DNA from: Maribacter sp. HTCC2170
GTDB lineage: Bacteria > Bacteroidota > Bacteroidia > Flavobacteriales > Flavobacteriaceae
Assembly (NCBI RefSeq): GCF_000153165.2
Contig: NC_014472.1
Coordinates: forward strand, 2,972,001 to 3,036,000
Direction of reading: 5' to 3'
DNA length: 64,000 nt
Shown here: in pieces, positions 19,057-21,724 of the stretch
Numbering within the stretch: position 1 is the first letter of the stretch
Layout of the letters: every line of letters begins with the position of its first letter
Made by a program: the position numbers and the translations under genes
Notes under the pieces: generated by a model
Database searches by the model: none
Told to the model about the DNA's origin: nothing
Seen by the model: the letters and a program-made list of their open reading frames with translations, nothing else

Positions 19057-19482
19057 ATGAATTATAGAATTCTAACCAAAGAGGATATCAATGTATCTTT
19101 TGAAAAAGAAATCAAAAGTCTTTTCGAACAATTAAATTCAGATATCAAACAACAAAACATTAAAGATGTTCTTTCACAAGGCAACGATTTTATCTGCGCT
19201 TGCTGCTGGGAAAATGAAAAGTTGATTGGTATGGCTTCATTAGCAACTTACAAGGTCATTTCCGGTCATAAGGGCTTGGTAGAAGACGTGGTTGTCTCGA
19301 ACACAATGCGCGGAAAAGGAATTGGCAGAAAACTTATGGAAATACTAATTGATGAAAGTGAAAAAATAAGGTTATCGGAGATTCTTCTTTTTAGTGGTCA
19401 TCATAGAAAACCAGCAATTTCACTGTATAAAAGTCTTGGTTTTAACCAAAAAGAAAGTGGCATGTATATTTTAAAGCTTTAA
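19057..19482 (+). CDS. GNAT-family N-acetyltransferase
   Basis: 141 residues. The acetyl-CoA pyrophosphate loop is seen in RGKGIGRKLME (about 86-96), preceded by the beta-strand LVEDVVVSNTM and followed by PAISLYKSLGF typical of the GNAT C-terminus. A longer frame begins at TTG 18982, but ATG 19057 gives the normal GNAT N-terminus (MNYRILTKEDI). Substrate unknown. It ends four bases inside the repressor gene on the opposite strand (19479-19482), so the two are tail to tail. Confidence 0.87.
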   Translation: MNYRILTKEDINVSFEKEIKSLFEQLNSDIKQQNIKDVLSQGNDFICACCWENEKLIGMASLATYKVISGHKGLVEDVVVSNTMRGKGIGRKLMEILIDESEKIRLSEILLFSGHHRKPAISLYKSLGFNQKESGMYILKL

Positions 19483-20243
19483 TCCCCTTTGACCTGATTA
19501 AACTGGCTTTTTAATTCTTCCATTGATTCTTGCAATTGCCGTAACAAGCCTTTTTCTGTAGTTGCATCTACACCAAATGTAATCTTACTGTTCACCTGCC
19601 AAATTTCTTGTATCTGCTGTGGTTTAATTTCATAAGGTGGATAGGTTTCATTTAGTGATATTAAAGTGATATTGGCGGAGTTAGGTGTTTTTTCAATCTT
19701 CTTAACCAATACCGCGTCCTGCAAAACAACAACATACATTTTATTGGCACTTACATGTTCTATATCCTCAACAGCCTTTGCCAATACCCACTCCCCTGGC
19801 CTTAAATTGGGCAGCATACTATCTCCTTCTACTTGAAAGCCCCTATAGGTAGTATTTCTGAATTCAGGTAAGGGTATATCAAAAGCAGGTAATTGCTTAT
19901 ACCAGCTCGTATCCTGAATATTTTGCGGATAACCAGCAGCTGCTTTGGCATTCACCAAAACCATATTCTCATTATCTGTAGAATCGACGGTCACCACTTT
20001 TGGAATAACACTGGTTTTTGAAGTCTCTAAATATTGTGAATCACTTTCACCGAACAACCAGAGTGGATTTATTTTAAACTGCTTTAAAAGCTCAGCGACC
20101 ACCTTTCCAGATAATTTGGTGCGCCCCCTTTCAATATCTGCAGTAGTACTGGAGATACCCAAAATCTTGGCGAATTCAGCCTGGGTAAACCCCAAATCTC
20201 TTCGAACCTCGGTAAATCTTTTTAATGTTAGTTCATTTTCCAT
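19479..20243 (-). CDS. LexA-like repressor: XRE HTH plus S24 peptidase domain
   Basis: 254 residues. An N-terminal Cro/CI-type helix-turn-helix (about 5-60, GFTQAEFAKILGIS) is joined to a C-terminal S24/LexA domain with the serine motif VEGDSMLP near residue 144 and the lysine region VLVKKIEK near 183. The candidate autocleavage site is in the AKAAAGYP stretch near residue 101, where LexA and CI have an Ala/Cys-Gly bond. Family knowledge says RecA-stimulated self-cleavage relieves repression. ATG 20243 fits the -7 box at 20247-20254; the longer frame to 20315 runs through operators. Four operator-like sites separate it from a divergent small gene. Confidence 0.9.
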   Translation of the reverse strand: MENELTLKRFTEVRRDLGFTQAEFAKILGISSTTADIERGRTKLSGKVVAELLKQFKINPLWLFGESDSQYLETSKTSVIPKVVTVDSTDNENMVLVNAKAAAGYPQNIQDTSWYKQLPAFDIPLPEFRNTTYRGFQVEGDSMLPNLRPGEWVLAKAVEDIEHVSANKMYVVVLQDAVLVKKIEKTPNSANITLISLNETYPPYEIKPQQIQEIWQVNSKITFGVDATTEKGLLRQLQESMEELKSQFNQVKGD

Positions 20244-20246
20244 ATT

Positions 20247-20276
20247 CAAATATACGTAATTTGGATTATTTCCAAA
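20247..20276 (-). promoter_or_regulatory. promoter of the LexA-like repressor gene
   Basis: On minus, TTTG (complement of 20273-20276), an 18-bp spacer and TATATTTG (complement of 20247-20254) form a good Bacteroidota promoter. The -33 box and most of the spacer lie inside operator-like site 1, implying autorepression. The -7 box ends only about 4 bp before the start codon, so the mRNA may be leaderless or nearly so. Confidence 0.6.
20260..20276. promoter_or_regulatory. operator-like site 1
   Basis: TTTGGATTATTTCCAAA: perfect 6-bp inverted half-sites (TTTGGA/TCCAAA) around a 5-bp centre. First of four related 17-bp sites between the repressor and the divergent small gene; it covers the repressor's -33 region. 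Confidence 0.65.
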
Positions 20277-20281
20277 ATAAA

Positions 20282-20298
20282 TTAGGAATATTTCCATA
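20282..20298. promoter_or_regulatory. operator-like site 2
   Basis: TTAGGAATATTTCCATA: same GGA-n5-TCC core as site 1, centre 22 bp away. It would overlap the -33 position of the plus-strand promoter (TTTC at 20291-20294). Confidence 0.65.
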
Positions 20299-20299
20299 A

Positions 20300-20316
20300 T
20301 TAGGAATATATCCATA
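20300..20316. promoter_or_regulatory. operator-like site 3
   Basis: TTAGGAATATATCCATA: nearly identical to site 2, centre 18 bp further on. It reaches the first bases of the plus-strand -7 box. Confidence 0.65.
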
Positions 20317-20322
20317 TATTTG
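20315..20322 (+). promoter_or_regulatory. -7 box for the 61-aa gene and DUF4130 gene
   Basis: TATATTTG matches TAnnTTTG exactly and lies about 18 bp before ATG 20341. The -33 position, 20 bp upstream, reads TTTC, one mismatch from TTTG. The box is squeezed between operator-like sites 3 and 4, so repressor binding should block it. Confidence 0.55.
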
Positions 20323-20335
20323 GATTATATACTAA
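20319..20335. promoter_or_regulatory. operator-like site 4 (one half degenerate)
   Basis: TTTGGATTATATACTAA: left half equals site 1, right half (TACTAA) departs from TCCAAA. Centre is 19 bp from site 3, keeping the roughly helical-turn spacing. Probably a weak site if used. Confidence 0.4.
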
Positions 20336-20340
20336 ATAGG

Positions 20341-20526
20341 ATGACAAATAAAACAATACAGGATAGACTCAGTTTTTTTGCTTTGGCTGGAACCAGAGAT
20401 CGTATTCATGAAAATAGAATGTTTACCAATAGAAGGAGAAAGCAAAAATCATCCGCCCTATTGGATGCTCAAAGGGTTGAGAAAGATCTTAACGTTAGAC
20501 CAAGTGTACAATTAAGTTTATTCTAA
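20341..20526 (+). CDS. 61-aa basic protein ending in a beta-clamp-binding motif
   Basis: A very small, strongly basic protein with RDRIHENR and NRRRKQK patches. Its last five residues, QLSLF (57-61), match the canonical sliding-clamp-binding pentapeptide QL(S/D)LF found in bacterial polymerases and other clamp clients. ATG 20341 is chosen because the alternative TTG at 20320 lies inside the -7 box. It is the first gene behind the LexA-like operators and is followed 6 bp later by the DUF4130 gene. I do not recognise the family. A role at the replication clamp under DNA damage is inference from motif plus context; a chance C-terminus or a truncated relic remain possible. Confidence 0.7.
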   Translation: MTNKTIQDRLSFFALAGTRDRIHENRMFTNRRRKQKSSALLDAQRVEKDLNVRPSVQLSLF

Positions 20527-20532
20527 GTTATT

Positions 20533-21192
20533 ATGGAAAATTCAAAGGTTTTGATTTACGATGGAAGTTTTAATGGGTATTTAACTTCACTTTATGTTGC
20601 CTTAAAAGAAAATATGGTAGTTAGCGATTTTCAGAAATTAAATACTACCCAAAATGGACTGTTTGTTGAATCAAAAATGGTTGTTACCCAGATTTCAAAG
20701 GCAAAAGAGGTTTGGACCCAAATAGAAAAGAAAGGTAATACCATTATTAGGAATGTTTATTTTGCATTTTTAAGTGAAGCAGATGGCATAGAGTATATGC
20801 TATACAACTATGTTCAAGGGTTGTTTAGAACAATGTCTTCGGAAGGAGTTGAGCAATCAGTGAATTTGGAACATAAAATTGTTCAGCTCGCAAAAATGGT
20901 CAGTAAGGAAAAGCATCTGATGGAGGCGGAAATTGAATTTGAAAACAATAATGACCGTATTCATATAGTTGAAATTGAGCCGGGTTACAATGTTCTGCCA
21001 CTAATTTCAAGATTTTTTAGATTCAAACATTCAAAACACCAATGGATCATCTTTGATCGCAAGCGTAATTACGGATTGTATTATAATTTAAGTTCTGTGG
21101 AAATTATCAATTCGGAGACAAAAAGCTGGTATATGAAATCAAGTGCATTGTCAAACACTTTTTCACAAAATGAGTATAGATTCGCGGTGTAA
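20533..21192 (+). CDS. DUF4130 (TIGR03915-type) putative DNA repair protein
   Basis: 219 residues. The opening KVLIYDGSFNGYLTSLY and the C-terminal block DVLPL-like (NVLPLISRFFRFKHSKHQW, then IIFDRKRNYGLYYN) are characteristic of DUF4130. Members are usually encoded next to a radical-SAM/helix-hairpin-helix protein (TIGR03916 type) and are predicted to act in DNA modification or repair. No such partner is present here; the neighbours are the 61-aa clamp-motif protein and the LexA-like repressor. It starts 6 bp after the small gene, so both share the repressed promoter. Biochemical activity is unknown for the family. Confidence 0.78.
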   Translation: MENSKVLIYDGSFNGYLTSLYVALKENMVVSDFQKLNTTQNGLFVESKMVVTQISKAKEVWTQIEKKGNTIIRNVYFAFLSEADGIEYMLYNYVQGLFRTMSSEGVEQSVNLEHKIVQLAKMVSKEKHLMEAEIEFENNNDRIHIVEIEPGYNVLPLISRFFRFKHSKHQWIIFDRKRNYGLYYNLSSVEIINSETKSWYMKSSALSNTFSQNEYRFAV

Positions 21193-21196
21193 GGAT

Positions 21197-21724
21197 TTAT
21201 TTTGATTTATCACCTATAAAGTGGTCGCTCTTGTTTTGAAAGAGTACATTAAAGGTGGTAAGACTACCATAGATTCGGGTAATATACTGTTGCAAATCAA
21301 TTTTTTCCTGATCGTTCAGGTTTTTGCTAGCGTTTATTTTTTGTTCCATAACACGAATTCGATCACGAACCATGACTATTTTATGGAAAAAAGTATCTAT
21401 GGGTATTTCCTTATCAGAAAGATTGGCTTCTCCAGGAGACATGGTCAATGTACCGCCTTTCCATTTACTGGCAATGGCAGTTGCATTATTGGTATCGCTC
21501 CACCTCTTTAATATAGAAATCAGAGACATCTCTACATCAGAAAAACTTACGGTGTCAACTTCATCCTCCACCGCTTCTATGACTTCAAATTCTGTATCAA
21601 TAGCTATAGTTTCTAATCCTCCATCTATGAAAGTTACCCAATATTGCTTTGAGGTTAAATTGGTCACAACTCCTTTTCCCAATTCAGGATGTGCTATGCG
21701 TGAACCTATACCAAGTAATTTCAT
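21197..21724 (-). CDS. unknown protein with UvrD-Tudor-like N-terminal domain
   Basis: 175 residues. Residues about 5-50 (GSRIAHPELGKGVVTNL, then YWVTFIDGGLETI) resemble the small SH3/Tudor-like domain at the C-terminus of UvrD/PcrA, which the helicase in this same window also has (VNHTRFGRGVVIKI). The remaining part is helical with a coiled-coil-like stretch (about 105-150) and no known motif. It is divergent from uvrA and converges on the DUF4130 gene with a 4-bp gap. A nucleic-acid or RNA-polymerase-binding accessory role is inference. It appears to be a conserved flavobacterial protein rather than an accidental frame. Confidence 0.75.
   Translation of the reverse strand: MKLLGIGSRIAHPELGKGVVTNLTSKQYWVTFIDGGLETIAIDTEFEVIEAVEDEVDTVSFSDVEMSLISILKRWSDTNNATAIASKWKGGTLTMSPGEANLSDKEIPIDTFFHKIVMVRDRIRVMEQKINASKNLNDQEKIDLQQYITRIYGSLTTFNVLFQNKSDHFIGDKSK

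Follow-up and report, generated by a model that had tools for sequence, protein, structure and literature searches.

What remains of a gene pair when its larger enzyme is lost, and why might the remainder be kept? The question is raised by a locus of Maribacter sp. HTCC2170, analyzed here within a stretch of 64,000 nucleotides (the window; contig NC_014472.1, positions 2,972,001 to 3,036,000), in which a LexA-type repressor faces a 61-amino-acid microprotein and a short protein carrying DUF4130, listed in Pfam as a domain of unknown function. The usual companion of DUF4130 (TIGR03915) is TIGR03916, a radical S-adenosylmethionine (radical-SAM) protein with a helix-hairpin-helix (HhH) region. 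The pair occurs in several phyla, and we know of no function established for it by experiment; in a single mention, DUF4130 has been predicted to be a mutagenesis-related enzyme that accompanies radical-SAM proteins of the SplB-like kind as well as uracil glycosylases (PMC3765255). The original prediction for this locus, made from the letters alone, held that DUF4130 stands here without TIGR03916 and that a small gene with a clamp-like motif occupies the enzyme's place. Both points were borne out: no match to TIGR03916 was found anywhere in the source genome, a single contig of 3.87 Mb, and the small protein carries QLSLF at its C-terminus. Comparison with relatives supports a reading of this small protein as TIGR03916 with its catalytic middle deleted. 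The genes concerned are as follows.

19479..20243, minus strand: repressor of 254 amino acids with S24 and helix-turn-helix (HTH) domains, of the Bacteroidetes non-canonical LexA type by its Pfam domains
20341..20526, plus strand: basic microprotein of 61 amino acids (MTNKT...QLSLF), whose N-terminal segment and C-terminal QLSLF match the two ends of TIGR03916
20533..21192, plus strand: short DUF4130/TIGR03915 protein of 219 amino acids without the C-terminal tail, by Pfam, the TIGR03915 profile and its predicted fold

The small gene and the two ends of TIGR03916

The 61-residue protein has no match in Pfam or NCBIfam at E up to 1. It lacks any cysteine, and thus the radical-SAM cysteine motif, and the HhH core is likewise absent; its isoelectric point is 11.5. 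Its counterparts in relatives (26 small proteins, the window's included) measure 53-75 amino acids, with N-terminal patterns such as MTNTTIQDKLGFFAQAGTRDV and a C-terminus of QLSLF or near variants, one of which (QPSLFD, at locus L070) was recognized by eye. In relatives, TIGR03916 proteins typically start in the manner of MSFERIKEKLNILADAAKYDVS; at the C-terminus, QLxLF followed by a few residues is present at 38 of 38 loci in a first set and at all 63 full loci among the 80 of a second. The two sets share some records and the first counts one gene twice, while the second was picked by similarity to the short DUF4130 and favors the LexA-linked lineage. Both the N-terminal segment of TIGR03916, KLxILADAAKYD, and its C-terminal QLxLF can be recognized in the small protein, as derived ends only.

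For the N-terminus, a profile-profile comparison of 26 small N-termini with 36 from TIGR03916 gave a probability of 88.8% and a score of 23.2, ungapped from residue 2; none of 400 column-shuffled controls reached this score (maximum 15.3). When 58 windows were taken along the TIGR03916 alignment, the N-terminal one scored 24.2, an overlapping neighbor 14.3 and the next 8.6, and other parts of the enzyme showed no match to the small N-termini in this test. At the other end, a C-terminal QLxLF-type motif was found in just 1 of 3996 control short open reading frames (ORFs), and that one is itself a fossil of the enzyme. At this locus (L132, 2978-2998) all that is left of TIGR03916 is a stretch coding for QLSLFN, with its stop, directly behind the promoter, and the DUF4130 tail is still present. 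A further locus, L155, retains nothing of the enzyme and most of the DUF4130 tail.

QLSLF is a good pentapeptide for binding the beta sliding clamp, and the last residues of the window protein fit the clamp-type consensus QL[SD]LF. The motif looks like a wider feature of TIGR03916, judging from a survey of loci L171-L202. Among the 29 best-scoring TIGR03916 proteins of a search across the phylum, some of which also belong to the first set, 20 have it at the C-terminus; eight of the nine misses, all with QLVLPGLF-like ends, belong to a single Bacteroidota family (f30), and the ninth ends in QLTLW. Outside the phylum, three plasmid copies have the C-termini QLSLFDSA (Clostridia), QLSLGF (Acinetobacter) and QLALI (Paracoccus). 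No report of a C-terminal clamp-like motif on TIGR03916 was found in the literature searched.

The small frame also appears to be maintained. Across eight genus members (61 codons), the ratio of nonsynonymous to synonymous differences per site (pN/pS) was 0.35 for residues 1-22, 0.73 for residues 23-55 and 0.10 for residues 56-61, compared with 0.34 for DUF4130, all of these being rough values, with synonymous sites near saturation (pS about 0.66). The corresponding rate ratio (dN/dS) was 0.17 in the close pair L002/L003 (10 synonymous and 8 other changes) and 0.28 in a second close pair, whose 2 + 2 changes are too few to weigh. These values support purifying selection on the small frame within the genus, apparently strongest at the two ends, and the stretches kept by selection coincide with those that match the ends of the enzyme.

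An origin of the microprotein by internal deletion of TIGR03916, followed by selection, is therefore considered highly probable. The first gene of an SOS-type TIGR03916/TIGR03915 operon appears to have been cut, here and in 11 other genera sampled, to a frame of 53-75 amino acids that keeps the position of the start codon, an N-terminal KLxxLA-type segment and a C-terminal QLxLF, with a poorly conserved and mostly basic linker in place of the whole catalytic middle. The original prediction had allowed that TIGR03916 might simply have been deleted here and had counted this against itself. As history the deletion is correct; as an objection it loses its force, for the deletion appears to have left the small gene behind.

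The LexA-type repressor and its operators

The repressor gene (20243-19479, minus strand) encodes a Peptidase_S24 domain (PF00717, 4e-13) and an HTH_3 domain (PF01381, 3.7e-7), the domain make-up of the non-canonical LexA group, and the protein is the sole match to itself across the genome. As predicted, it faces the two-gene unit across clustered operators, which lie in the 97-bp gap between it and the small gene.

20247..20254, minus strand: TATATTTG, possible -7 element of the repressor gene
20263..20273, no strand assigned: operator 1, GGATTATTTCC, exact GGA-N5-TCC, spacing conserved in relatives
20285..20295, no strand assigned: operator 2, GGAATATTTCC, exact GGA-N5-TCC, spacing conserved in relatives
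20303..20313, no strand assigned: operator 3, GGAATATATCC, exact GGA-N5-TCC, spacing conserved in relatives
20315..20322, plus strand: TATATTTG, candidate -7 element
20322..20332, no strand assigned: degenerate operator 4, GGATTATATAC (GGA-N5-TAC), one mismatch from GGA-N5-TCC

The Bacteroidetes -7 element has the consensus TAnnTTTG, and the exact operators are flanked by two copies of TATATTTG, one on each strand, which fit it. Four GGA-N5-TCC operators had been proposed; three are exact, and the fourth deviates by one base, yet GGA-N5-TAC stands at its place in 22 of 26 small-gene loci, the window's included. The window as a whole is not enriched for GGA-N5-TCC (8 observed, 11.5 expected). 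What is unusual is the clustering, with three of these eight sites inside 51 bp, where about 0.02 would be expected per 100 bp.

The operators also bear on the origin of the small gene. They lie at about -80, -58 and -40 from its start (26 loci, window included: three sites in 24 and two in 2). For TIGR03916 the corresponding distances are about -80, -57 and -39, as given for eight of 62 loci, of which 34 have three sites, 27 have four and 1 has two. Because these distances agree, the small gene and TIGR03916 share the same start place. A homologue of the repressor is present at all 79 loci used for a LexA tree, 47 of which lack TIGR03916, and it lies opposite DUF4130 in 80 of 80 loci of the second set; at full-pair loci L021-L050, with 1.5 kb of flank each, it was seen at 10 of 30.

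The regulatory part of this system is already known (PMC8565304). We take COG4277 to be TIGR03916. The non-canonical LexA repressors of Bacteroidetes include a group with GGA-N5-TCC sites that is found mainly in Flavobacteriaceae; binding to the site was demonstrated for one member, the regulator of a different species, and the regulon includes a COG1573-COG4277 operon (PMC8565304). The window repressor resembles this group in its S24 and HTH domains, in the sites within its own promoter, in its flavobacterial host and in the presence of the same sites before a Y-family polymerase gene; no difference was seen, the likeness being one of features rather than of sequence (PMC8565304). The Y-family gene in question is preceded by two GGA-N5-TCC sites, at distances of 66 and 85 bp (L206, 2025-2054), and is likely a second target of the repressor, while the second of the two Y-family genes in the source genome has no such site in the surrounding stretch examined. 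The original prediction did not recognize the combination at this locus as described; its regulation is not new, and neither a small partner nor enzyme loss is mentioned in the available portions of PMC3765255 and PMC8565304.

Distribution of the locus and the shortened DUF4130

DUF4130 was found in 10 of 12 genus genomes searched, the window genome included, and the remaining two are 68% complete. None of the ten encodes TIGR03916; all ten carry the repressor and a small gene of 61-62 amino acids, and their DUF4130 proteins share 46-57% identity with that of the window. The close named relatives of the locus are Maribacter species. In a wider sample of 397 Flavobacteriaceae genomes, many of them drafts, TIGR03915 occurs in 138 and TIGR03916 in 101. 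The scores of TIGR03915 are bimodal and track the presence of TIGR03916: the protein is near full length in 101 of 101 genomes with the enzyme (at least 249 bits), whereas in the 37 without it the score is at most 218 bits, with the match ending at position 188-201 in 26. Of these 37, the small gene is present in 19, from 12 genera counting Maribacter. The trio of repressor, small gene and DUF4130 is thus conserved in the genus and beyond it, and the small gene does stand conserved beside DUF4130, the lack of which would have spoken against the original prediction. One of the 37 (G165) contains a DUF4130 fragment alone.

A few genomes depart from these patterns. G289 (loci L064 and L029) has a complete TIGR03916/TIGR03915 pair and, separately, a LexA-linked short DUF4130 without a small gene, while in G034 the two full genes lie about 6 kb apart. 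G405 (L085) encodes a short DUF4130 and a separate C-terminal DUF4130 fragment (positions 201-241), perhaps the remnant of a lost second copy.

The window DUF4130 matches Pfam at 4.4e-17 and TIGR03915 at 121.6 bits (cut-off 112.25), covering profile positions 1-195 of 243; the tail columns are gapped, so the domain is not full length. The 36 full DUF4130 proteins are at least 95% identical at 59 alignment columns. Of these, 18 are preserved by at least 80% of 39 short proteins and 25 by fewer than 30%, in a comparison that left out five very divergent short proteins (L079-L083). The short proteins keep Y9, D10, G15, S81, E82, W171, D175 and R178, and have lost most of the basic/His motif REKHRMEAFVRF along with almost the entire tail, which contains HVPKRYWKYL. 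The window protein retains H128, M130 and A132, and lacks R129, F133, R135 and the tail. The window locus is of the same kind as the TIGR03916/DUF4130 pair, which is the COG4277 operon under SOS control: it shares the repressor and operators of LexA-linked relatives, a homologous DUF4130 and a small protein with both ends of the radical-SAM protein. It differs from the pair in lacking the radical-SAM core and HhH, and in having a tail-less DUF4130 with an altered basic/His motif.

In the second set, the DUF4130 tail is present at all 63 enzyme loci (62 by pattern, L110 by eye) and, among the 17 loci without the enzyme, at L132 and L155 only. This distribution suggests that enzyme loss came first and tail decay later. 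No DUF4130 of the alignment has a C-terminal clamp motif, and thus DUF4130 did not take the motif over. An internal QxxLF (QNGLF in the window protein, residues 40-44, at 20650-20664) occurs in 28 of 36 full proteins, in 22 of 26 encoded with a small gene and in 10 of 18 others, and may be a clamp motif or structural.

How often the enzyme was lost was examined on trees. Mapped on a LexA tree of 79 hand-picked loci, in which the bootstrap had not settled and several branches are long, presence of the full pair requires 11 changes, at least 8 of them forced by starred branches, with L132, L120 and L155 each placed among full loci. Unless loci were exchanged between species, this tree implies numerous losses of the enzyme. 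Presence of the small gene requires 6 changes on the same tree (at least 3 forced), and a single clade of small-bearing loci against the full loci is weakly rejected in the approximately unbiased (AU) test (p-AU 0.035), where LexA may have been transferred with the locus. The DUF4130 tree is harder to read: an unstarred branch (78/54) sets apart 39 rows, made up of the small-bearing loci and 13 loci lacking both the enzyme and the small gene, and a single clade of all loci without the enzyme is not rejected (p-AU 0.208). On these results the microprotein may have had one origin or several.

The predicted structure of DUF4130 offers a lead to its nature. AlphaFold gave a good model of the window protein except for the last residues, and its 50 listed structural neighbors are by name mostly members of the DHH superfamily. 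The Z values are borderline (PAP phosphatase 9.6, RecJ about 8.6-9.0, Cdc45 5dgo 7.8), a best Z of 7-8 being common. Foldseek likewise places the phosphatase first, at 1e-4 with a TM-score of 0.35, and RecJ next, and a PDB search at E up to 10 found no sequence relative. The model aligns with RecJ/Cdc45 over most of its length (Z about 7-9) but at about 5-10% identity, and the usual DHH catalytic motifs were not seen in DUF4130: the invariant columns inspected contain one N-terminal YDG and no DHH. As a lead from modeling, DUF4130 may have a RecJ/Cdc45-like (DHH-superfamily) fold without the usual catalytic motifs.

What the microprotein may do

Ultimately, the locus seems best explained as a whole by a microprotein that is the end-remnant of TIGR03916 and serves as an SOS-induced adaptor tying the short DUF4130 to the sliding clamp, an account we consider moderately probable. 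DNA damage would inactivate the non-canonical LexA, so that the small protein and the short DUF4130 are both made. The microprotein would bind the beta clamp via QLSLF, and its N-terminal segment, possibly the part with which the enzyme once held its partner, would hold the short DUF4130 and thereby bring it to stalled forks, making the microprotein a non-enzymatic clamp adaptor or scaffold. The adaptor function taken on its own is put more tentatively, at a little under even chances. ImuB and ImuA' of the SOS response are comparable, in that a non-catalytic, clamp-binding partner is under SOS control, as would be the case for the window protein; the adaptor here would differ in being a 61-residue leftover of an enzyme, and the likeness is one of role.

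Several results weigh against this account. Plain hidden Markov model (HMM) searches are weak, which leaves the profile-profile test to carry the argument for the N-terminus: an HMM of 36 residues from TIGR03916 N-termini, run against 1999 ORFs, ranks the small proteins high, at E 0.16 or worse and amid noise, and the reverse search puts TIGR03916 N-termini in its top rows at E 7.5 and worse, below an unrelated ORF. The selection ratios are rough, as described above. No small gene was found in 17 of the 37 genomes that keep DUF4130 without the enzyme (by pattern search, complemented in 11 of them by reading the upstream frames), so the small protein is not always needed, and every small-gene locus was reached through DUF4130. 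In AlphaFold models whose pairs were joined by reading through the stop codon, the window's small protein remains mostly below 50 in predicted local distance difference test (pLDDT) score and undocked from DUF4130, with two rows of the alignment covering the small part, and the full TIGR03916/DUF4130 pair is modeled poorly (mean pLDDT 63.7). Since the small protein is undocked and the full-pair model poor, structure prediction gives the binding of DUF4130 no support.

An alternative is an SOS-induced competitor for the clamp, in which the free microprotein would fill the groove of DnaN via QLSLF and slow or redirect polymerases, with DUF4130 a separate product. No part of the protein is under stronger selection than the C-terminal motif (pN/pS 0.10), which matches the clamp pentapeptide; the protein is small and basic (isoelectric point 11.5), and DUF4130 does persist without it in those 17 of 37 genomes. 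Competition of this kind nevertheless leaves unexplained both the conservation of the N-terminus (0.35) and its match to the N-terminus of the enzyme, and is considered unlikely. Less likely still is a decaying relic, an in-frame leftover of the core deletion that is translated and has no function. Recurrent loss of the enzyme (11 changes on the LexA tree, at least 8 forced), the differing leftovers at L132 (a fossil) and L155 (nothing), and the nearly free middle of the protein (pN/pS 0.73) are what such decay would produce, but frame, length and both ends are kept in 10 of 10 genus genomes whose DUF4130 proteins have diverged to 46-57% identity with that of the window, and the dN/dS of the two close pairs is low (0.17, and 0.28 from 4 changes). 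That an unrelated small gene replaced the enzyme and gained its clamp motif by convergence would fit the shortness of the similarity and the weak standard HMM searches; it is very improbable given the outcome of the profile test, two matching ends in the right order, and start codons that occupy the same position with respect to the operators.

Taken to its full extent, the preferred adaptor reading describes a radical-SAM DNA-repair enzyme trimmed, probably on more than one occasion, to a microprotein that is induced by SOS, consists only of partner-binding and clamp-binding ends, and takes DUF4130, a RecJ/Cdc45-like pseudo-nuclease, to the replisome. This fuller version is speculative, and we regard it as having perhaps one chance in three or slightly better. 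If true, the TIGR03916/TIGR03915 pair would have a scaffolding role that persists after its chemistry is gone, and a whole enzyme may be reduced to a tether for the DNA-copying machinery. The repeated natural deletion would also hint, through the parts kept (the two ends, the DUF4130 core and the SOS-type operators), at what works without radical-SAM chemistry, and the analysis points to the C-terminal clamp-like motif on TIGR03916 and to the fold of DUF4130. The locus would further provide a microprotein of bacteria that relatives allow to be traced back to the two ends of an enzyme.

Beyond DUF4130, a 175-amino-acid protein without a family is encoded at 21197-21724 on the minus strand, between DUF4130 and uvrA, and is found in the same place in several genus members.

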